From Solirubrobacterales bacterium 70-9 (GTDB lineage Bacteria > Pseudomonadota > Alphaproteobacteria > Acetobacterales > Acetobacteraceae), in assembly GCA_903970625.1 (NCBI GenBank), contig CAJCJG010000150.1, positions 1 through 34,029 of the forward strand: a stretch of 34,029 nt of DNA, in the 5' to 3' direction. Made by a program: the position numbers and the translations under genes. Below the pieces are notes generated by a model, which made no database searches, was not told where the DNA came from, and worked only from the letters and a program-made list of their open reading frames with translations. This document shows positions 2,946 to 13,295 of the stretch, in pieces (position 1 is the first letter of the stretch; each line of letters starts with the position of its first letter).

Positions 2946-4088
2946 TCAATCCTTCCCCACCACCGACCGCGCAATGATCAGCCGCATGATTTCGTTGGTG
3001 CCTTCCAGAATCTGATGCACCCGCAAATCGCGGACGATTTTCTCGATGCCGTAGTCGGCCAGATAGCCGTAGCCGCCATGAAGTTGGAGCGCGCCATTGG
3101 CGACCTCGAAGCTCGCATCGGTGACGAATCGCTTGGCCATGGCGCAGAGCTTGGTTGCATCGGCGGCTTTCGCTTCCAGCGCGGACGCTGCCCGCCAGAG
3201 GAACGTGCGCGCCACCTCCAGTTGCGTCGTATAGTCCGCGAGCCGGAACCGCAACGCCTGAAATTCGCTTAGTGCCGTCCCGAACGCCTTGCGCTGCCGC
3301 ATATACGCGACGGCGCGATCCAGTGCCGCCTGCGCGCCGCCCAGCGAGCACGCGGCGATGTTGACGCGCCCGCCGTCCAGCCCGCTCATCGCGATGGAAA
3401 ACCCTTTGCCTTCCGGCCCCAGCCGGTTCGCCGCCGGCACGCGCGCGCCATCGAACAGCACCGCCCGCGTCGGCTGCGCGTTCCAGCCCATCTTTTTCTC
3501 GTTGGCGCCGAACGACAGGCCGGGCGTCCCTTTCTCGACCACGAACGCGGAAATCCCGCCCGCGCCATCGCCCCCTGTCCGCGCCATCACGACATAGAGG
3601 TCGGACGCGCCCGCGCCGGAGATGAACTGTTTTTCCCCGGTCAGCACGTATGCATCGCCATCGCGCACCGCCCGCGTGCGCAGCGCCGCCGCGTCCGACC
3701 CGACCGCCGATTCCGTCAGGCAATAGCAGGCCAATAATTCCATCGAGGCCAGCGGCGGTATCCAGCGCCGCCGTTGTTCCTCCGATCCATAAACATCCAG
3801 CATCCAGGCGCACATGTTGTGGATCGAGAGGTACGCGGCAATGGTCGGGCAGCCGCCCGCCAGCGCCTCGAAAATCACCGCCGCGTCGAGCCGCTTCAGC
3901 CCGGTGCCGCCGACATCTTCACGCGTGTAGATCGCGGCCAGCCCCAGTGCTGCGGCTTTGCGCAGGGTCTCCACCGGAAAATGCCTGGCCTGATCCCACT
4001 CCACCGCGAACGGCGCGAGTTCCTCGGCGGCGAAGGCCGCCGCCATGTCGCGGATCGCTGCCTGCTCCTCGCTCAGCTCGAAATCCAT
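2946..4088 (-). CDS. acyl-CoA dehydrogenase, isobutyryl-CoA dehydrogenase-like
   Basis: A 380-residue flavoprotein beginning MDFELSEEQ. It shows CYCLTESAVGSDAA near 121-134, RQRKAFG near 264-270, LHGGYGYLADYGIEK at 336-350 and ILEGTNEIMR at 360-369, with E362 as the likely catalytic base. The pattern resembles isobutyryl-CoA dehydrogenase (ACAD8 type) of valine breakdown, but the acyl group cannot be fixed from sequence. A GTG at 4103 would add five residues. ATG 4088 is preferred because it begins the conserved N-terminus and has AGGTGG about 11 bases upstream. It follows the RidA gene by 18 bases and probably ends the hyu operon, so it may process the acyl-CoA end product of that pathway. 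Confidence 0.87.
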   Translation of the reverse strand: MDFELSEEQAAIRDMAAAFAAEELAPFAVEWDQARHFPVETLRKAAALGLAAIYTREDVGGTGLKRLDAAVIFEALAGGCPTIAAYLSIHNMCAWMLDVYGSEEQRRRWIPPLASMELLACYCLTESAVGSDAAALRTRAVRDGDAYVLTGEKQFISGAGASDLYVVMARTGGDGAGGISAFVVEKGTPGLSFGANEKKMGWNAQPTRAVLFDGARVPAANRLGPEGKGFSIAMSGLDGGRVNIAACSLGGAQAALDRAVAYMRQRKAFGTALSEFQALRFRLADYTTQLEVARTFLWRAASALEAKAADATKLCAMAKRFVTDASFEVANGALQLHGGYGYLADYGIEKIVRDLRVHQILEGTNEIMRLIIARSVVGKD

Positions 4089-4507: not shown

Positions 4508-6283
4508 CTATGAAGTATGCGCTGCCAACCGCCGCCGCGCCGTGGCCTCGGCATCGACCGCCAGCGACTCGTCCTCGACACGTCCGTTCAGCACAACGCC
4601 GTAAACGTCGCCTGCCCGCTCCACTGTCTCCCAGCCCTCCAGCACGTCGCGCAGCACGCGGCGCGGATCGCGTGCCAGCGGGTCGCCGTAGCCGCCGCCC
4701 GAGCAATCGAAGGTGCGCAGGACTTCGTTCTTGCGAATCTCCACATGGGCGACATTGGCCAGCCGCGTCTGCTGCCCGTTGGCAGAGATGTGCCAGCCTT
4801 CGCCACACAGCCCGTCCTGTCCGCCCTGCACGCCCTTGGCCGGATATTTTTCGCCGTCGCGCGGATAGATGACGGTGACGCTGTGCTCCTTCGGCCGGAA
4901 CGCCGTTTCCGACCCCGGCGCACCGCGCATCTTGCCCGCCCCGCCGCTGCCGGCAACGAGCCGCATGTAGGCGAACTCGATCGGGTGCTTCAGTTCGTCG
5001 ATCTCGATCGAATCGCGATACATCAAGCCGGAGACAACGGGCAATCCGTACGTGACCCAGCCGTCCGCCAGCGGCGAGGCGGGGCCGCCATTGTTGGTCA
5101 AGATCAACTGGTTCACATACGGCTCGTCGTTGTAGCGATGGTCCTTGCCGGAGATGACGGACGAGCTGCCGCCCATGCCGACGCCGCCTTCGGCCAGCCC
5201 ATACCCCTCGCCAAGCTGCGCGAACACCGCACCCGCGCAATTCACCAGCCGGTCCGCCACGTTCGTCGTGGCCACCGAACAGGAGTGCGGAAATGCGGGG
5301 CGGCCGACGACCGCGCCGTCTTTCAACTCCAGTTCGATTCGCCGGAACGAGCCTGCGTTGCGCGGAATATCGGACGGCAGCGCGTTGAAGATCCCGGCCA
5401 TGACGGCAGAGACAGTACACGCCTCGCTCTCGTTCAACCCGCAATCCAGGTTCGGAATGTTGTCGCGCAGATCGACAAAGATCTTTGCTTGCGCCGGATC
5501 GATCTCGACCTCGATGTTGATGGGAATGCCATCCGGCAGCAGCGGCTCGAACGGATCGTGCCGCGCGCTGTTTTTCAACGTCGCCTTCGGCATCTTGCGC
5601 AGCGCCTCGATCATCCGCTGTTCCGAGTAGTTCAGCCAATCCTTGATGAAGGTCTTGACGATGGCCTTGCCATATTTCGCGCACAGTTCCTGCAACCGCC
5701 GCTCCGCCGTGCGCGCGGCGCCGAGACCCGCGAGGAAGTCGCCGTACCATTGGTTGGGCACACGGATGCGGCTGCGACACATCGCCACGATGTCGTCGAT
5801 CATCTTGTAGCCGCGCTGGATGCGCACGGCGGGGAAGATCAGCGAGCCTTCCTCGTACACGTCGCGGGCGGCAGCGTGATACGTCGTCGGGATCGAATTG
5901 CCGATATCCGCCTGATGCGCTTTGGCGACTGCGGTGAACAGATGCTCGCCCTCGAAGAACACCGGCACCAGGAACGTGTGGTCGGCCGGATGCGTGTTGC
6001 CGGTGTACGGGTCGTTGTGCAAATAGGCGTCGCCCTCCGCCAGATCGGGGTGCCGCTCCACCATCGTGCGGGACTGCATGTGCGAGCCGAAAATATGGAT
6101 CGGCAACCCTTCCGCGCAGGCCAGCAACTGGTTGTCGCCGGTGCAGATGGCGCAAGAGAAATCGCGAGCACTATTGATCACCGCCGAGCGTCCGGCGCGC
6201 AGCAAAGTCGTCGTCATCTCGCGCACAACACCGTCGATGCGGTTGGCCAGCACCGCCGTCATCACCGGATCGATCGTGCTCAT
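4508..6283 (-). CDS. hyuB: hydantoinase B / oxoprolinase subunit B
   Basis: A 591-residue HyuB-family subunit. The N-terminus DPVMTAVLANRIDGVVREM, the HNDPYTGNTHPADH block and the glycine-rich stretches near the centre (GLAEGGVGMGGSSS) and toward the C-terminus (SGGAGKMRG) are typical. With HyuA it forms an ATP-dependent amide-ring-opening enzyme; known members act on 5-oxoproline, N-methylhydantoin or caprolactam, and carboxylase relatives also exist. ATG 6283 overlaps the hyuA stop as ATGA, so the two subunits are translationally coupled. The frame stays open upstream of 6283 only across hyuA coding sequence. Length fits a stand-alone B subunit. The substrate is unknown. Confidence 0.9.
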   Translation of the reverse strand: MSTIDPVMTAVLANRIDGVVREMTTTLLRAGRSAVINSARDFSCAICTGDNQLLACAEGLPIHIFGSHMQSRTMVERHPDLAEGDAYLHNDPYTGNTHPADHTFLVPVFFEGEHLFTAVAKAHQADIGNSIPTTYHAAARDVYEEGSLIFPAVRIQRGYKMIDDIVAMCRSRIRVPNQWYGDFLAGLGAARTAERRLQELCAKYGKAIVKTFIKDWLNYSEQRMIEALRKMPKATLKNSARHDPFEPLLPDGIPINIEVEIDPAQAKIFVDLRDNIPNLDCGLNESEACTVSAVMAGIFNALPSDIPRNAGSFRRIELELKDGAVVGRPAFPHSCSVATTNVADRLVNCAGAVFAQLGEGYGLAEGGVGMGGSSSVISGKDHRYNDEPYVNQLILTNNGGPASPLADGWVTYGLPVVSGLMYRDSIEIDELKHPIEFAYMRLVAGSGGAGKMRGAPGSETAFRPKEHSVTVIYPRDGEKYPAKGVQGGQDGLCGEGWHISANGQQTRLANVAHVEIRKNEVLRTFDCSGGGYGDPLARDPRRVLRDVLEGWETVERAGDVYGVVLNGRVEDESLAVDAEATARRRLAAHTS

Positions 6284-8364
6284 GCCGACACTCCTATATC
6301 GAGCAGATAGTGCCCGGCCCCGCTGATGCGCGCCGACATGCCGGGAAACACCACCAGCGTCGTCGTCGGTTCCTCCACGATGGCCGGCCCCGAAATTGTC
6401 AATCCCGGATGCAAATCCGCCGGCGCGTAGACCGGAGTCGCCACCGGATCGCCCCCTCCAAAATAACAGTTTCGCGATGCTGCGGGAATCACGCTGTCGT
6501 GCGCGGCCACGTCGGGCGACAGCGCCGCGGCCGGCGCCAGCCGCACGATCAGGCGGGCTTTCCAGTTGATGCACTCCACCGGGCTGTGCAGATCGCGCAC
6601 GGCGAACACCCTCTCATGCACCTGATGAAATGCCTCCATCAGTGCGGCCACGTCCTCCGGCCCGCGCAGGCGCGGCACCGGAAGTTTTGTGTCCAGTTCC
6701 CAAACCTGCCCCAGATACCGCGCCTCGGCCAGCAGTTCGATCTCGTGCGCGGCGTCCGCATGCGGCCCCAGCCCGGCGAGGAACCGGTGCAGCCGCCCCT
6801 CCAGATCGTCCAGCACGCGGTTCACGTCGTCGTAGCGGAACCGCGCCGAACTGGTCGGCAGACTTGCCGTCTCCTCCTTGACGATATCCGCGTACTGCAT
6901 GCCGGAGGCGGACAGGGCCGACGCCACGTTCGGCAAAATCACGCGCTTGCAGCCAAGCTCGCGGGCAATGCTCAGAATATTCATGCCGGCCGCGCCGCCG
7001 CCCGCGACGATCGTACTTTCCTGCGGATTCAACCCTTCCGATGTGGTGATCTCGTGAATCGCGCGAATCATCAGTTCGCTGGCAAGGTTCAAAATGTCCC
7101 ATGCCGTCTGTTCGATGCCGCGCCCGATCTGGGTGGCTACAGTTCCCACCGCCTGCCGCGCTGCCGCCACGTCCAATTTCATCCGCCCGCCGAGGAAAAA
7201 ATCCGGGTCGAAATAGCCAAGCACGCAGGCGGCATCGGACACGGTGGGCAGTAGTCCGCCGCGTCCGTAGCAGGCCGGACCCGGATTGGCCCCGGCCGAC
7301 TGCGGCCCGACACGCATCAGGCCGCCATCGTCGATCCACGCAATCGAACCGCCGCCCGCGCCGATGGAGCGCACGTCCACGGAGGACACGCCGAGCAGAT
7401 TGCCGGTCCACTGGCCGCCGAGCCACGTATCGCGATTGAACACCAGCCGCCCGTCGCGTACCAGCCCGACATCGAACGTCGTGCCACCGGTGTCGCACAC
7501 GATCACGTCGTCGCCGAGATTTTCCACGCGCGAATAGGTCAACCCGGCAATCGGCGCCATCGCCGGCCCGGATTTCGCCGTGTGGATCGGGGCCGCGACC
7601 ACTTCGTCCACCTGCATGATGCCGCCGACGCTGGTGGAAATCAGGATTTCGCCGGTGTAGCCCTCGGCACGCAGATCGCTTTCCAGGCCACGAATGTGAC
7701 GCTGCATCAGCGGCTTCAGCGAGGCGTCGATGGCGGTGGCCGAGGCGCGGCGATATTCGCGCACGATCGGCACCAACTGGTGCGACAGCGTGTACGGCAC
7801 GCCCGGCAGCAACTCGTCCAGCAGATGCGCCATGCGCAATTCGTGGTCCGGGTTGGCGATGGACCAAAGGAAGCACACTGCCACCGCCTCGATGCCGCGC
7901 TGGCGCAAAATCTCTACAACGCCGCGCGCCTGCACCGCGTCGAACGGCACGGACGCCGTGCCTTCGGAGCTCATGCGTTCCGCGATTTCGAACGTGCGGC
8001 GCCGTGCCACGTAAGGCTCGGGATATTCCTTGCTGAAATCGTGCGCGTTCAGCTTACCCCCTTCCTTGAATACCAGCGTGTCCGGAAATCCCTGCGTGGT
8101 GAGGAACGCAGTCTTCGCGGCGGTGCGGGTGACGATGGCGTTGGTCGCGCGCGTGGTGCCGTAGATCAGCAGTGCGGTGTTGGCCAGCAGCGCCGCGAGG
8201 TCGATGCCGATATCCCGCGCGGCTACATCGAGCGCTTCTCGCATGCCGCCGAACGCCCGTTCCGGCGTGGTCAGCGCCTTGCCGATGGTCTGCGTGCCGG
8301 AACTGTCCATGACGACGACATCGGTAAACGTGCCGCCGGTATCGACGGAAATGCGGTATGCCAT
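6280..8364 (-). CDS. hyuA: hydantoinase A / oxoprolinase subunit A
   Basis: A 694-residue HyuA-family ATPase subunit. The N-terminal phosphate-binding loop DTGGTFTD lies at residues 8-15, followed by ATNAIVTRT (substrate or nucleotide pocket), the central DTGGTTFDVG, a second actin-like ATPase motif, and the VAGGGAAGMNI segment. It activates a lactam or imide carbonyl by phosphorylation so that HyuB can complete ring opening. GGAGAC precedes ATG 8364 at normal spacing. The gene follows the class III aminotransferase by 32 bases, a gap that contains the palindrome GTGTGATCACAC, suggesting the operon reads aminotransferase, hyuA, hyuB, ridA, acyl-CoA dehydrogenase, perhaps with an internal control point. 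Confidence 0.91.
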   Translation of the reverse strand: MAYRISVDTGGTFTDVVVMDSSGTQTIGKALTTPERAFGGMREALDVAARDIGIDLAALLANTALLIYGTTRATNAIVTRTAAKTAFLTTQGFPDTLVFKEGGKLNAHDFSKEYPEPYVARRRTFEIAERMSSEGTASVPFDAVQARGVVEILRQRGIEAVAVCFLWSIANPDHELRMAHLLDELLPGVPYTLSHQLVPIVREYRRASATAIDASLKPLMQRHIRGLESDLRAEGYTGEILISTSVGGIMQVDEVVAAPIHTAKSGPAMAPIAGLTYSRVENLGDDVIVCDTGGTTFDVGLVRDGRLVFNRDTWLGGQWTGNLLGVSSVDVRSIGAGGGSIAWIDDGGLMRVGPQSAGANPGPACYGRGGLLPTVSDAACVLGYFDPDFFLGGRMKLDVAAARQAVGTVATQIGRGIEQTAWDILNLASELMIRAIHEITTSEGLNPQESTIVAGGGAAGMNILSIARELGCKRVILPNVASALSASGMQYADIVKEETASLPTSSARFRYDDVNRVLDDLEGRLHRFLAGLGPHADAAHEIELLAEARYLGQVWELDTKLPVPRLRGPEDVAALMEAFHQVHERVFAVRDLHSPVECINWKARLIVRLAPAAALSPDVAAHDSVIPAASRNCYFGGGDPVATPVYAPADLHPGLTISGPAIVEEPTTTLVVFPGMSARISGAGHYLLDIGVSA

Positions 8365-8390: not shown

Positions 8391-8402
8391 GTGTGATCAC
8401 AC
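8391..8402. promoter_or_regulatory. candidate operator, GTGTGATCACAC
   Basis: A perfect 12-base palindrome overlapping the stop codon of the aminotransferase gene and lying just upstream of hyuA. Its 10-base core TGTGATCACA is identical to the one in the divergent promoter at 9807-9816. It is a candidate site for one of the two GntR/FCD regulators in this cluster and may control an internal promoter for hyuAB. Confidence 0.5.
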
Positions 8403-9773
8403 CGGCCGCACTGCCATTGCATCGTCCAGCGCGCGCCCGAACACGTCGAACACTTCGTCGATCTCCGCTTCGGTGATGATCAGCGGCGGCGAGAAGGCGA
8501 TGGTATCGCTGGCGGAGATTTGCCGGGTGATCACACCCAGGTCCTCGCAGCGTTCGCGCACGAATTTGCCGACCGCGCCCAGGGGCTGGAACCGCGCCCG
8601 CGTCGCCTTGTCCGCCACCAGTTCGACGGCGCCCACCAGCCCGACCGCGCGGACCTCGCCCACAAGCGGATGGTCGGCAAATCCCCGCAGCCGTTCGACA
8701 AACCGGCGCGAGACCTTTTGCACATGCGCCAGAATACCGCGCCGTTCCATGATCTCGATGGTGCGCAGCGCCACGGCGGCGGCCACGGGATGGCCGGAGT
8801 AGGTGGTGCCGTGGGCAAAGAAGCCGATGCTGTCGGACCCTTTCTCCAGCCCGCGATAAATCTCGTCGGACAGTGCCAGCGCCGCGATGGGCTGGTAGGC
8901 GGAAGACAATCCCTTCGCCATCGTCATCGTGTCCGGCGCGATGCCGAACGTCTCGCAGCCGAACATGCGGCCGGTGCGCCCGAAGCCGGTGATGACTTCG
9001 TCGGCCAGGAACAGCACGTCGTATTTCGCCAGCACCGCCTGGATCGCCGAAAAATACCCGTCCGGCGGAATCACCACGCCGCCCGCGCCCGTCACCGGCT
9101 CGGCGATGAAGGCCGCCACCGTGTCCGGCCCTTCGGCCAGGATCATGGCTTCGAGATTGCCGGCCATGCGCGCCACGAATGCCGCTTCGTCCTCACCCGG
9201 CAGACCGTTGCGGTAGAAATGCGGATCGTCGGTGTGCAGAAATCCCGGCAGCGGCAGGTCGAACGCGCGGTGTTGCACCGGAATCCCTGTCATGCTCGCC
9301 GCCCCCAGCGTGGAGCCGTGATAGCCGTTTATGCGAGAAATGATCTTCTTCTTCAGCGGCCGGCCGATGGCGTTGTTGTAGTAGCGAATGAACTTGACCA
9401 GATTGTCGTTGGCTTCGGAGCCGGAGAGCGCGAAATAGATGCGCGCGTTTCGGATCGGCACCAGGCTCGCCAGCTTTTCGGCAAGGTCTATGGCGGGGCC
9501 TACGGATTTCGAGGCCACCGTATGATAATATGGCAACTTGTGCATCTGTTCGACGGCTGCGTCGATCAGCTCCTCCTCCCCGAAGCCGAGCGACGTACAC
9601 CACATGCCGGCCACGGCCTCGATATACGGCCGCCCAGTGTCGTCGTACACGTACACGCCCTTGCCCGACACGATGATTTTCGCACCATCGCGACGGTGGG
9701 CGGCAAGGTTGGTGAAACCATGCACCAGCGTGGCCGCATCGCGGGCCGCCGGGGAATTGGGCAAGCCGTCCAT
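8397..9773 (-). CDS. class III (omega) aminotransferase, PLP-dependent
   Basis: A 458-residue fold-type I PLP enzyme. The phosphate-cup motif is LSGSEAND (116-123), the pyridine-nitrogen aspartate is D258 in ADEVITGFGRTG, the Schiff-base lysine is K287 in MAKGLSSAYQP, and FAHGTTYSGHP follows. The family transfers terminal or beta amino groups of omega-amino acids or amines to pyruvate or 2-oxoglutarate. ATG 9773 follows a very strong GGAGGTGAC; a start 14 codons upstream has no such site. It is the first gene of the hyu operon. It could remove the amino group freed when HyuAB opens a cyclic amide, which is inference. Donor and acceptor are not predictable from the sequence. Confidence 0.9.
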   Translation of the reverse strand: MDGLPNSPAARDAATLVHGFTNLAAHRRDGAKIIVSGKGVYVYDDTGRPYIEAVAGMWCTSLGFGEEELIDAAVEQMHKLPYYHTVASKSVGPAIDLAEKLASLVPIRNARIYFALSGSEANDNLVKFIRYYNNAIGRPLKKKIISRINGYHGSTLGAASMTGIPVQHRAFDLPLPGFLHTDDPHFYRNGLPGEDEAAFVARMAGNLEAMILAEGPDTVAAFIAEPVTGAGGVVIPPDGYFSAIQAVLAKYDVLFLADEVITGFGRTGRMFGCETFGIAPDTMTMAKGLSSAYQPIAALALSDEIYRGLEKGSDSIGFFAHGTTYSGHPVAAAVALRTIEIMERRGILAHVQKVSRRFVERLRGFADHPLVGEVRAVGLVGAVELVADKATRARFQPLGAVGKFVRERCEDLGVITRQISASDTIAFSPPLIITEAEIDEVFDVFGRALDDAMAVRPV

Positions 9774-9799
9774 GTCACCTCCGGGCAAAAACCTTGACG

Positions 9800-9828
9800 A
9801 CGATGATGTGATCACACCATGCTGTCAA
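9800..9828 (-). promoter_or_regulatory. tentative promoter with operator in its spacer
   Basis: On the minus strand a perfect -35 element TTGACA (9828-9823) is followed after 17 bases by CATCGT (9805-9800), a weak -10 element. The palindrome TGTGATCACA sits inside the spacer, so a bound regulator would block RNA polymerase. It would drive the aminotransferase-hyuAB operon. The -10 match is poor, so the exact promoter is uncertain. Confidence 0.35.
9807..9816. promoter_or_regulatory. candidate operator, TGTGATCACA
   Basis: A perfect 10-base palindrome in the 82-base gap between the two divergent aminotransferase genes. The same core recurs at 8391-8402, with one mismatch at 8526-8535 and two mismatches over the start of the second GntR gene (12614-12623). 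The half-site spacing differs from CRP sites, which have six bases between TGTGA and TCACA. A GntR/FCD regulator encoded nearby is the likeliest binder. Confidence 0.55.
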
Positions 9829-9855
9829 GCATCCGAACCGGGGAAAGGCATCGTC

Positions 9856-11175
9856 ATGTGGCCCAGTGAAAATTCCGCGTCGCGCCCGTTGTACGATCGC
9901 GCGCTGCGCGTCATGGTCGCCGGCACCACGCGGCATATCCCCTGGCAAGATCCGTTCCCGAGGTTCGCCGCCTCCTGCCGTGGCATGTACGTCACCGACG
10001 TGGACGGCGCGGACGTTCTAGACCTGGTGATGAACAACGCGGCCCTCATCCACGGCCACGCATCGCCGCCGGTGATGGAGGCGGTGCAGGCGCAACTGTG
10101 GCGCGGCACAGCCTGCACCCTGCCGTTCGAGGTCGAGGTGTCGCTGGCCGAACTGCTATGCGAGCGGGTGCCGTCGCTGGAGAAAATCCGCCTGTGCAAT
10201 TCCGGCACCGAGGCGGTGATGCTCGCCATCAAGGCCGCCCGCGCCTACACGAACCGCCCGAAGATCGTGAAGGTGGAAGGCATCTATCACGGCATGTACG
10301 ACTATGCCGAGGTCAGCCTCGACCCGAAGCCGGACAATTGGGGGAACGATCCCGGCCGCATCGGCTATTCGCGCGGCGTACCGCAAGGCGTGCTGGACGA
10401 TGTGATCATCGTGCCCTGGAACCAGCCCGAAGCCCTGCGCCGCATCCTGCGCGACGAAGCCGCGTCCGTCGCCGCGATCCTGTTGGATCCGGTTTCTGGA
10501 GGCACCGGCTTCACGCCGCCGACACCGGAATTTTTGGACGCGGTGCATGAGGCGGCGCATGAGATCGGCGCCTTGGTCATCTACGACGAAGTGCTGTGCT
10601 TTCGCCTCGGCTACCACGGTGCGCAGGGCCGCTTCGGCGACCGGCGGCCAGATTTGACGGTTCTGGCGAAAATCATCGGCGGCGGCTTCCCGGTCGGCGC
10701 CATTGGCGGCCGGTCGGACGTGATGGAAGCCGTGTTCGAACACCGGCGCGGCAAGCCGCTGCTGCCCGCCAGCGGCACCTTCACGGCCAATCCCATCTCG
10801 ATGACCGCCGGCTTGGTGACGATGCAGATGCTGGACGAAGCCAGTTACGACAAACTCGACCGCATCGGCGATACCGCGCGCGCCATCATGCGCGATGCGC
10901 TCGCGCGTGCGGGGGTGCCCGGGCAAGTCACCGGCATCGGCTCGCTGCTGGCCGTGCATCTGCATGACCGCCCGATCCACGACTACCGCTCGGCCTTTGC
11001 CTCGCCCACCGAGGCAGCATCGCTGCGCGCGCTGCAACTGGCGATGCTGAAGCGCGGCGTGCTAATGGCCGTGCGCGGCGTGGCCTATCTGCCGACGGTC
11101 ATGGCCGATGCAGATTTCGAACGTCTTGAATTGGCCGTGCGCGGCGCGCTGGCGGACATGGCGCAGCATGCCTGA
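9856..11175 (+). CDS. class III aminotransferase, glutamate-1-semialdehyde aminomutase-like
   Basis: A 439-residue PLP enzyme of the HemL-like branch. It has CNSGTEAVM (114-122), the PLP aspartate D244 in YDEVLCFRLGYHG, the lysine K272 in LAKIIGGGFPVGA and SGTFTANPIS at 306-315. True HemL makes 5-aminolevulinate, but relatives outside heme operons include beta-amino-acid transaminases. The catabolic setting and coupling to a GntR regulator favour a transaminase role here. ATG 9856 is chosen because GGGGAAAGG lies upstream at good spacing and the N-terminal alignment starts there; the frame remains open far upstream only antisense to the other aminotransferase. Its substrate is unknown. Confidence 0.87.
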   Translation: MWPSENSASRPLYDRALRVMVAGTTRHIPWQDPFPRFAASCRGMYVTDVDGADVLDLVMNNAALIHGHASPPVMEAVQAQLWRGTACTLPFEVEVSLAELLCERVPSLEKIRLCNSGTEAVMLAIKAARAYTNRPKIVKVEGIYHGMYDYAEVSLDPKPDNWGNDPGRIGYSRGVPQGVLDDVIIVPWNQPEALRRILRDEAASVAAILLDPVSGGTGFTPPTPEFLDAVHEAAHEIGALVIYDEVLCFRLGYHGAQGRFGDRRPDLTVLAKIIGGGFPVGAIGGRSDVMEAVFEHRRGKPLLPASGTFTANPISMTAGLVTMQMLDEASYDKLDRIGDTARAIMRDALARAGVPGQVTGIGSLLAVHLHDRPIHDYRSAFASPTEAASLRALQLAMLKRGVLMAVRGVAYLPTVMADADFERLELAVRGALADMAQHA

Positions 11176-11875
11176 CAGCCCCACACTCTCGGCACAGGTC
11201 TATCGCGATCTGCGCAACGCAATCCTGATAGGCACGTATCCGCCCGGCACCCATCTCACCCTGCGCGCGCTCGCCGACGAACTCGGCACCAGCGTCATGC
11301 CTGTGCGCGAAGCGGTGCAGCGCCTTGCCGCCGAGCACGCCGTTGTGCTGAGCCCGAATAAAAGCATTCGCATTCCTCCGCTCGATCGTGCGGAAATCGA
11401 ACAATTGTGGCGACTGCGCATTCTGATCGAGGGCGATGTCTGCCTACTCGCCGCCGGCCGTGCGACTGCGGCGCAGATCGATGCTGTGGCGGCGCTGAAC
11501 GCGGCGGCGGGCAAACTCTATCGCGCCAAGCAACTCAGCGACTTCTTCGCGAAAATCAGCGCCATGGGGCGTGTCCTCGCCGAGGCGGCGGGGGCGGCGC
11601 TGCATGCCGAGTTGATCGCCAATCTGCGCCTGCGCTCCGGCCCACACATGGCGCTGGCGCTGCGCGGCGAGGGGGCGACGGACGACACGTTCGTTAATTT
11701 TACCCTGGCCATGACGGTCGAGGTCGTGGCCGCGTTGCGGGAGGGCGACGGCGAGCGCGCACGGGACGCCCGGCGGGTCGATCTACAAACCTTCCAGCGG
11801 TTCATTTTCGACCGCCTGGGTTGGCAGCGCGTCGCGCCGCTGGCGGATGCGGGCGCGGCTCAAAACTTGCCGTAG
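11168..11875 (+). CDS. GntR family regulator, FCD type (first)
   Basis: A 235-residue regulator with an N-terminal winged helix (about residues 8-70: QVYRDLRNAILIG, then LRALADELGTSVMPVREAVQRLAAE) and a C-terminal all-helical FCD-like ligand domain. FadR/FCD regulators usually bind short palindromes near their own cluster and release them on binding an organic acid or related metabolite. ATG 11168 overlaps the end of the upstream aminotransferase by eight bases, so the two are co-translated. Its last 16 bases overlap the 3' end of the convergent RraA-like gene. It is one of two candidates for binding TGTGATCACA. Confidence 0.88.
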   Translation: MPDSPTLSAQVYRDLRNAILIGTYPPGTHLTLRALADELGTSVMPVREAVQRLAAEHAVVLSPNKSIRIPPLDRAEIEQLWRLRILIEGDVCLLAAGRATAAQIDAVAALNAAAGKLYRAKQLSDFFAKISAMGRVLAEAAGAALHAELIANLRLRSGPHMALALRGEGATDDTFVNFTLAMTVEVVAALREGDGERARDARRVDLQTFQRFIFDRLGWQRVAPLADAGAAQNLP

Positions 11876-12510: not shown

Positions 12511-12552
12511 ATGCCCGTTTCCCCTGGTTCTGCTTCGAGCCTATCCTCGAAT

Positions 12553-12590
12553 ACCATTTTCGACAAAAAATTTTTTATGGTTGATTTTTT
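12553..12590. promoter_or_regulatory. AT-rich divergent promoter region with A-tract palindrome
   Basis: The 104-base gap between the RraA-like and GntR genes contains AAAAAATTTTTT (12565-12576), followed by a further T-run ending at 12590. It is flanked by ACCAT (12553-12557) and ATGGT (12577-12581). In such a GC-rich neighbourhood this stretch stands out; it is likely bent promoter DNA or an operator. On the minus strand TTGTCG and TAGGCT with a 17-base spacer could be the RraA promoter. Confidence 0.45.
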
Positions 12591-12613
12591 CGGTCCGCCC
12601 CGTAGGGTCGTGT

Positions 12614-12623
12614 TATGATCACT
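12614..12623. promoter_or_regulatory. weak copy of the TGTGATCACA site over the GntR start codon
   Basis: TATGATCACT matches eight of ten bases of the candidate operator and covers the ATG at 12615. If bound it would give autorepression. Two mismatches make chance occurrence possible. Confidence 0.25.
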
Positions 12624-13295
12624 TTGCGACGCGCCACGCTCGCCGAACAGGCGTATGAGGAACTGCAAGCCCAGATCGCCACCGGCCGCCTGCCCGCCGG
12701 CCGGCGACTGCTCGCGGAGGAATTGGCGAGCCAGCTTGCCATCAGCCCAACTCCGGTCAAGGAGGCTCTGGCCCAGCTCGAACGCGACGGGCTGGTGGAG
12801 AGCGAGGCGCGGCACGGTTCCGTGGTACGCCGCTTCGCCGCCGATGACATTGCCGAAATCTACGAGGCCCGCGTGCTGATCGAGACGCACGCCGTGAGTG
12901 TTGGCATGAAGGCGCGACGCAATACGCCGGCCTTCCTCGCTGACCTACGGGCGACATACGCGGCGCAGCAGGCGCACGCCGAGCGCCGCAACACCGAGGA
13001 TCTGGCCGAAGCCATCCGTCTGGATCGCGCGTTTCATGAAGCTCTGGTGTCGCTCGGCGCCAACCGCCCGATGGCCGGCTGGCATCGGATGCTGCTGCGC
13101 CAGACGCAGACCATCCGCTCCTATTCGCTTGAACGGTACGACGTGGATCGCGCGCGCGCAGAGCACGCCGCCATCATCGACGCCTTGCAGGGCACCAGTG
13201 GCGGCATCGCTGTCCGCGCCGTCCGCGACCATCTGACCCGGAGCCGCGAGGAAATGCTGTCGCGCGCGCCGGAAGACCTTCCGCCCCGCCCATGA
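12615..13295 (+). CDS. GntR family regulator, FCD type (second)
   Basis: A 226-residue regulator with winged-helix residues about 8-72 (AEQAYEELQAQIATGRLPAG, LASQLAISPTPVKEALAQLERDGLV) and an FCD ligand domain. The latter shows the helical EARVLIETHAV, the metal-type DRAFHEALV and the late histidine in RAVRDHL. FCD domains of this form often bind a metal ion that holds a carboxylate ligand. AGGG lies eight bases before ATG 12615. The stop overlaps the start of the UxaA small subunit as ATGA, so the regulator is translated together with the enzyme genes that follow, which fits a local, substrate-responsive repressor. It probably controls the uxaA-like and ABC importer genes. Confidence 0.9.
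   Translation: MITLRRATLAEQAYEELQAQIATGRLPAGRRLLAEELASQLAISPTPVKEALAQLERDGLVESEARHGSVVRRFAADDIAEIYEARVLIETHAVSVGMKARRNTPAFLADLRATYAAQQAHAERRNTEDLAEAIRLDRAFHEALVSLGANRPMAGWHRMLLRQTQTIRSYSLERYDVDRARAEHAAIIDALQGTSGGIAVRAVRDHLTRSREEMLSRAPEDLPPRP

Follow-up and report, generated by a model that had tools for sequence, protein, structure and literature searches.

A ten-base palindrome as the predicted operator of an FCD-type GntR regulator in a divergent aminotransferase and hydantoinase gene cluster

Several GntR-family regulators related to the one discussed here have described operators. Atu1419 of Agrobacterium fabrum, an FCD protein of the VanR group, has the operator ATGTATACAT (GT-N2-AC), in which the essential G3 is read by Arg45, and looping has been shown for this system (PMC7797058). 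The survey of the FadR subfamily by Suvorova et al. (2015) reported TKGT/ACMA boxes with a GT-AC spacing of 2 or 3 nt (PMC4494728). In E. coli, RspR/YdfH is a GntR repressor acting at a palindromic box, ATACnnGTAT (PMC8249747), and McbR/YncC is reported to have AT-rich sites that contain an ATATAT motif (PMC13343897).

Here we analyse a stretch of DNA of 34,029 nucleotides (the window), in which the perfect palindrome TGTGATCACA recurs at a gene cluster that also encodes two FCD regulators, GntR1 and GntR2. The locus resembles that of Atu1419 in several respects (PMC7797058): a catabolic cluster has an FCD regulator, a perfect even palindrome of ten bases recurs both in a divergent gap and at a neighbouring promoter, autoregulation occurs (predicted for GntR1), and an extra degenerate copy lies within a gene; it differs in that TGTGATCACA reads GT-N4-AC and in that Arg45 is absent, its place being taken by Val in GntR1. 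As in the FadR subfamily, the sites are palindromic and a single mid-gap site would control both divergent operons, as is proposed below for the site O1 (PMC4494728). However, with 4 nt between GT and AC (TGT-GATC-ACA), TGTGATCACA falls outside the GT-N2/3-AC class, so that a regulator which is an ordinary FCD protein by its domains is paired with an operator outside the spacing rule surveyed for that subfamily. RspR is likewise a repressor at a palindromic box, but the box is a different one from TGTGATCACA. McbR (PDB 4P9F), which among solved structures comes closest to the GntR1 clade (1.2e-47), similarly has a recognition region without Arg45 (GMSITPVRE), and the His in the FHF motif of the clade is missing from it too, whereas its AT-rich sites are unlike TGTGATCACA. 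A search of the open-access literature found no paper linking TGTGATCACA with a GntR protein, the sole bacteriology match being a cloning primer; since the coverage was that of open-access papers, the novelty of the pairing is provisional.

The gene cluster and its copies of the palindrome

The genes and sites to which the text refers are the following.

4508-6283, minus strand: hyuB, hydantoinase B-type subunit (Pfam Hydantoinase_B, 3.7e-116), in the same operon as hyuA
6280-8364, minus strand: hyuA, hydantoinase/oxoprolinase A-type subunit (Pfam Hydantoinase_A, 8.6e-74), presumed target of O2
8391-8402: O2, predicted second operator, GTGTGATCACAC, overlapping the stop codon of the aminotransferase gene; hyuA starts about 27 bp further on
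8397-9773, minus strand: class III aminotransferase (Pfam 1.3e-85; match to NCBIfam PRK06105 above the cutoff), heads the divergent operon, presumed target of O1
8526-8535: possible degenerate auxiliary site, GGTGATCACA, within the aminotransferase gene at a distance of 134 bp from O2
9807-9816: O1, predicted main operator, TGTGATCACA, centre 9811.5, midway in the 82-bp divergent gap 9774-9855
9856-11175, plus strand: hemL-like class III aminotransferase (Pfam Aminotran_3, 1.4e-52), first gene of the gntR1 operon
11168-11875, plus strand: gntR1, regulator with GntR winged-helix and FCD domains, proposed to bind O1 and O2
12615-13295, plus strand: gntR2, second FCD regulator, judged not to be the binder

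The two exact copies of the 10-mer named in the original prediction are indeed present, at 8392-8401 and 9807-9816, the former extending to a 12-base palindrome, the longer of the two, at 8391-8402. A genome-wide pattern search returned just these two exact copies in 4.63 Mb, and the 10-mer is thus not common at random sites. About 1.7 copies are expected in the genome by an estimate from base composition, so that the number as such is no excess; the chance that two random sites in this genome lie within 1415 bp of each other is about 6e-4. The copies stand at opposite ends of one class III aminotransferase gene. Both had been placed in gaps flanking that gene, which holds for the 9807 copy, whereas the stop codon (TGA, minus strand, 8399-8397) falls within the copy at 8392-8401, whose end lies 27 bp ahead of the hyuA start codon.

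The mismatched copies that had been listed beside them exist too, but have to be read differently. The one-mismatch copy at 8526-8535 lies inside the aminotransferase gene, in the codons GGT GTG ATC ACC (GVITR) of a stretch that is conserved at the protein level in homologues, and these codons may explain the match equally well; one-mismatch matches occur at 18 further places in the genome, 8526 among them. An 11-mer, GTGATCACACC, is common to all three copies (8392, 8526 and 9807). The two-mismatch copy TATGATCACT does overlie the gntR2 start at 12614-12623, but matches with up to two mismatches number 8 in the window against 9.85 expected, which is chance frequency, and this copy therefore carries no weight as a site. 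The weight rests on the exact copies only, with 8526 perhaps to be added.

The first gene of the operon formed by the hemL-like gene and gntR1 begins 39 bp after O1; the reading frames of these two genes overlap by 8 bp, and gntR1 is therefore presumably part of the same operon, at its end. Hexamers resembling -35 elements flank O1 on both strands (TTGACG at 9794-9799, plus; TTGACA at 9826-9821, minus). The copy had been said to lie within the spacer of a TTGACA promoter, of which the hexamer can be recognised while the promoter is unproven: a sigma-70 promoter scan around the sites found none, and neither TTGAC hexamer has an adequate -10 element. We can only infer, then, that two divergent promoters overlap here and have the operator lying between them.

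Pairing of the palindrome with GntR1-type regulators

A search of the class with GntR1 yielded distant homologues only, and it is from these that the upstream footprint comes. Homologues were gathered by protein similarity alone and their upstream DNA was inspected afterwards. In the first set, exact TGTGATCACA occurred within 350 bp upstream of 6/29 GntR1 homologues; in the GntR2-type control the exact 10-mer was found upstream of 0/29 and a one-mismatch form of 1/29. When the GntR1 set was enlarged with plasmid records and by a profile search of the phylum and the class, TGTGATCACA was present within 400 bp upstream of 19 of the 69 non-redundant GntR1-type FCD regulators of proteobacteria. 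The 21 upstream sites at these 19 loci compare with 0.02 expected from per-sequence first-order Markov composition; the nominal Poisson probability for 21 sites, about 1e-55, tells no more than that the count is very far from chance, as the loci are related. The unbiased figure is the 6/29, the enlarged set deriving partly from a profile (A1) built mostly of motif-bearing members. Across the 69 regulators, TGTGATCACA was the commonest palindromic 10-mer upstream, followed by TTTGATCAAA at 8 loci, while every other palindromic 10-mer was found at 3 loci at most. Five exact copies fell beyond the upstream windows, all starting past the end of the regulator gene. The motif-bearing GntR1-type regulators are 28-38% identical, and about 70% of the sampled clade members have no exact 10-mer upstream. 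GntR1 itself matches the clade profile at 1.3e-73, far above the other proteins of its own genome (next listed, 2.8e-33); with GntR1 as query, the nearest paralogue in the genome reaches only 6e-12.

Twelve further genomes were picked because they carry a motif-bearing regulator, so that one copy at the regulator was guaranteed and it is the scarcity of copies elsewhere that is informative. In four of the twelve, every exact copy lies at the clade regulator (G291, 1/1; G277, 1/1; G999, 1/1; G367, 2/2), and in G1107 four of five are within about 6 kb of it. The remaining picked genomes hold 2 to 15 exact copies, and the motif is thus not exclusive to the regulator everywhere.

The neighbouring genes are in part shared as well. 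Of the sampled clade regulators, 13/60 have a class III aminotransferase gene no further than about 1.5 kb away, as against 0/29 of the GntR2 type (p = 0.008). A divergent pair of hemL-like aminotransferase and regulator genes with exact copies in the gap, a layout close to that of the window, was seen at L061/L142, L160/L207, L168, L169 and L171. Searches with the aminotransferase and the hemL-like protein found no close orthologue of the whole cluster, their best matches (about 59% and about 51%, respectively) having other neighbours; the nearest arrangement, hyuA / GntR1-type regulator / hemL-like gene in G183 (L055/L196), lacks the exact motif.

Some individual loci showed further features. 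In G1107, exact copies at 4049, 4136, 9515 and 10394 (coordinates of locus L204) surround a single clade regulator, from which two are some 5.5 kb distant; this locus is a candidate for a larger regulon or for looping. On an Agrobacterium vitis plasmid (L131), exact TGTGATCACA at 5085 precedes a phosphotransferase/class III aminotransferase pair downstream of the GntR gene, and not the GntR gene itself. Plasmids of Rahnella and E. coli (L133, L134) carry a third palindrome, TGATGCATCA, upstream of a clade GntR gene that adjoins class III aminotransferase and phosphotransferase genes. At the sampled motif-bearing loci, TGAT and one further base precede many of the sites (TGATNTGTGATCACA) but not those in the window; this element may be an additional half-site like those described close to GntR operators (PMC4494728).

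Recognition region and sensor domain of GntR1

Residues are numbered here as in Atu1419/FadR, where Arg45 belongs to the recognition helix. Among the motif-bearing regulators, Arg35, Ser44 and Arg49 are each present in 19/19 and Met46 in 18/19, with Arg45 in 0/19; the full signature (Arg35, Ser44, Met46, no Arg45) is present in 18/19, and the recognition region of GntR1, LTLRALADELGTSVMPVRE, fits it throughout. That of GntR2, LASQLAISPTPVKE, is of another type. Within the sample, the motif is upstream of 18/45 members of the Met46 type and of 1/20 others (Fisher p = 0.0035). The sister palindrome TTTGATCAAA stands upstream of L035, L036, L038, L039, L058, L163, L164 and L173, and Arg35 is kept in 4/8 of these regulators versus 19/19 of those with TGTGATCACA. 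This difference between TTTG and TGTG sites suggests, from few and related sequences, that Arg35 reads the outer G/C pair, and TTTGATCAAA with loss of Arg35 is possibly a specificity switch. We lean slightly towards the view that a large proteobacterial FCD/GntR clade reads TGTGATCACA, or its variant TTTGATCAAA, with Arg35 and a Ser-x-Met-Pro helix replacing Arg45, and that GntR1 is a member which keeps the reading head but has an altered sensor. The palindrome, anonymous before, becomes in this way the predicted operator of one named regulator; the recurring 10-mer, together with the recognition-helix signature, should make the targets of many uncharacterised FCD regulators predictable from sequence, and it gives an easy way to test whether the family has a second mode of reading DNA, with Arg35 instead of Arg45.

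GntR1 has an N-terminal GntR winged helix (PF00392, 3.4e-16, 59.1 bits against a cutoff of 27) and a C-terminal FCD domain (PF07729, 1.2e-9, 39.1 bits against a cutoff of 24.3). Its best NCBIfam match, PRK11414 (6.3e-17), is far below the cutoff of that model, which we take to be the one for the RspR/YdfH group. The DNA-binding domain of GntR1 is 42-57% identical to those of the other profile members (mutual mean 54%), and the FCD domain 21-27% (mutual mean 34%). GntR1 has Gly, Ala and Arg in place of H134, Y138 and W154, which do not vary among the 15 other aligned members; H134 is the likely metal-ligand His, although it is not defining for all FCD proteins, McbR being also without it. The tree gives GntR1 a long branch, and the exact motif is lacking in L034 and L045, its nearest neighbours there. 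The sensor of GntR1 may have been re-purposed or be degenerate: probably, either GntR1 has a ligand other than its relatives have, or it has a degenerate sensor.

Predicted regulation of the cluster and alternative readings

The occurrence of the same 10-mer before distant relatives of GntR1 in many other bacteria makes GntR1 the predicted binder. In our reading, to which we assign a probability of roughly 0.88 on sequence evidence, TGTGATCACA is the operator of GntR1. A GntR1 dimer would bind O1 in the middle of the gap and from there control both operons, most likely by repression, as is usual for single sites in the divergons of this family (PMC4494728): that of the hemL-like aminotransferase and gntR1, which would amount to autoregulation, and the divergent aminotransferase-hyuA-hyuB operon. 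O2, just before hyuA, would add a further level of control over hyuAB, and 8526 could be a weak auxiliary site comparable to the degenerate in-gene copy of Atu1419. Sequence comparison shows the motif itself, how rare it is, where it lies and that it goes with the GntR1 clade; what we infer is binding by GntR1, repression, the ligand and any looping between O1 and O2, which are 1415 bp apart.

Other proteins have to be considered as binders. GntR2 might bind the palindrome and control the cluster, as its gene encodes an FCD regulator, lies at a distance of 2.8 kb and has a two-mismatch copy across the start codon; yet such matches occur at chance frequency, none of 29 GntR2 homologues has the exact 10-mer upstream (one has it with one mismatch) and the recognition region is of a different type. 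We consider this very improbable and reject GntR2 as the binder. The proposal that one of the two local FCD regulators binds the site is thereby upheld and narrowed to GntR1, before whose homologues TGTGATCACA is enriched while it is absent before those of GntR2. Just as improbable, in our estimate, is ownership of the palindrome by a regulator encoded elsewhere, of Lrp-, CRP- or MarR-like type, with the association with GntR1 as a by-product. The half-sites TGTGA/TCACA do resemble those of CRP, but CRP requires TGTGA-N6-TCACA and the half-sites here abut, at spacing 0, so that the exclusion of CRP on half-site spacing was sound and we too reject a CRP operator. A global regulator would moreover be expected to have many sites, whereas the 10-mer is found twice, and the motif follows GntR1-type genes across phylogenetically scattered genomes, sometimes as the sole copy beside them.

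The more serious reservation concerns O2. O1 could be a true GntR1 operator and the 8392 copy a coincidence at a gene junction, as half of that palindrome is coding sequence plus stop codon, and operators within co-directional operons are less usual than at a promoter. Against this, with about two copies expected genome-wide, the second lies 1.4 kb off and directly before hyuA, which has a probability of about 6e-4, and it is the longer palindrome of 12 bp; we regard coincidence at 8392 as unlikely, though much less so than a different binder. That both repeats are functionless chance palindromes, finally, is the least credible reading: it agrees with the genome count (about 1.7 expected, 2 seen) but leaves unexplained the joint position and the cross-genome association (21 observed against 0.02 expected). 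Control of the two operons by GntR1 through O1, with O2 as an additional site, is the reading that we retain.

The RraA-like/gntR2 divergent gap (12511-12614) has repeats of its own. It holds AAAAAATTTTTT at 12565-12576 and an inverted repeat, ACCAT/ATGGT, at 12553-12581, a possible GntR2 site.
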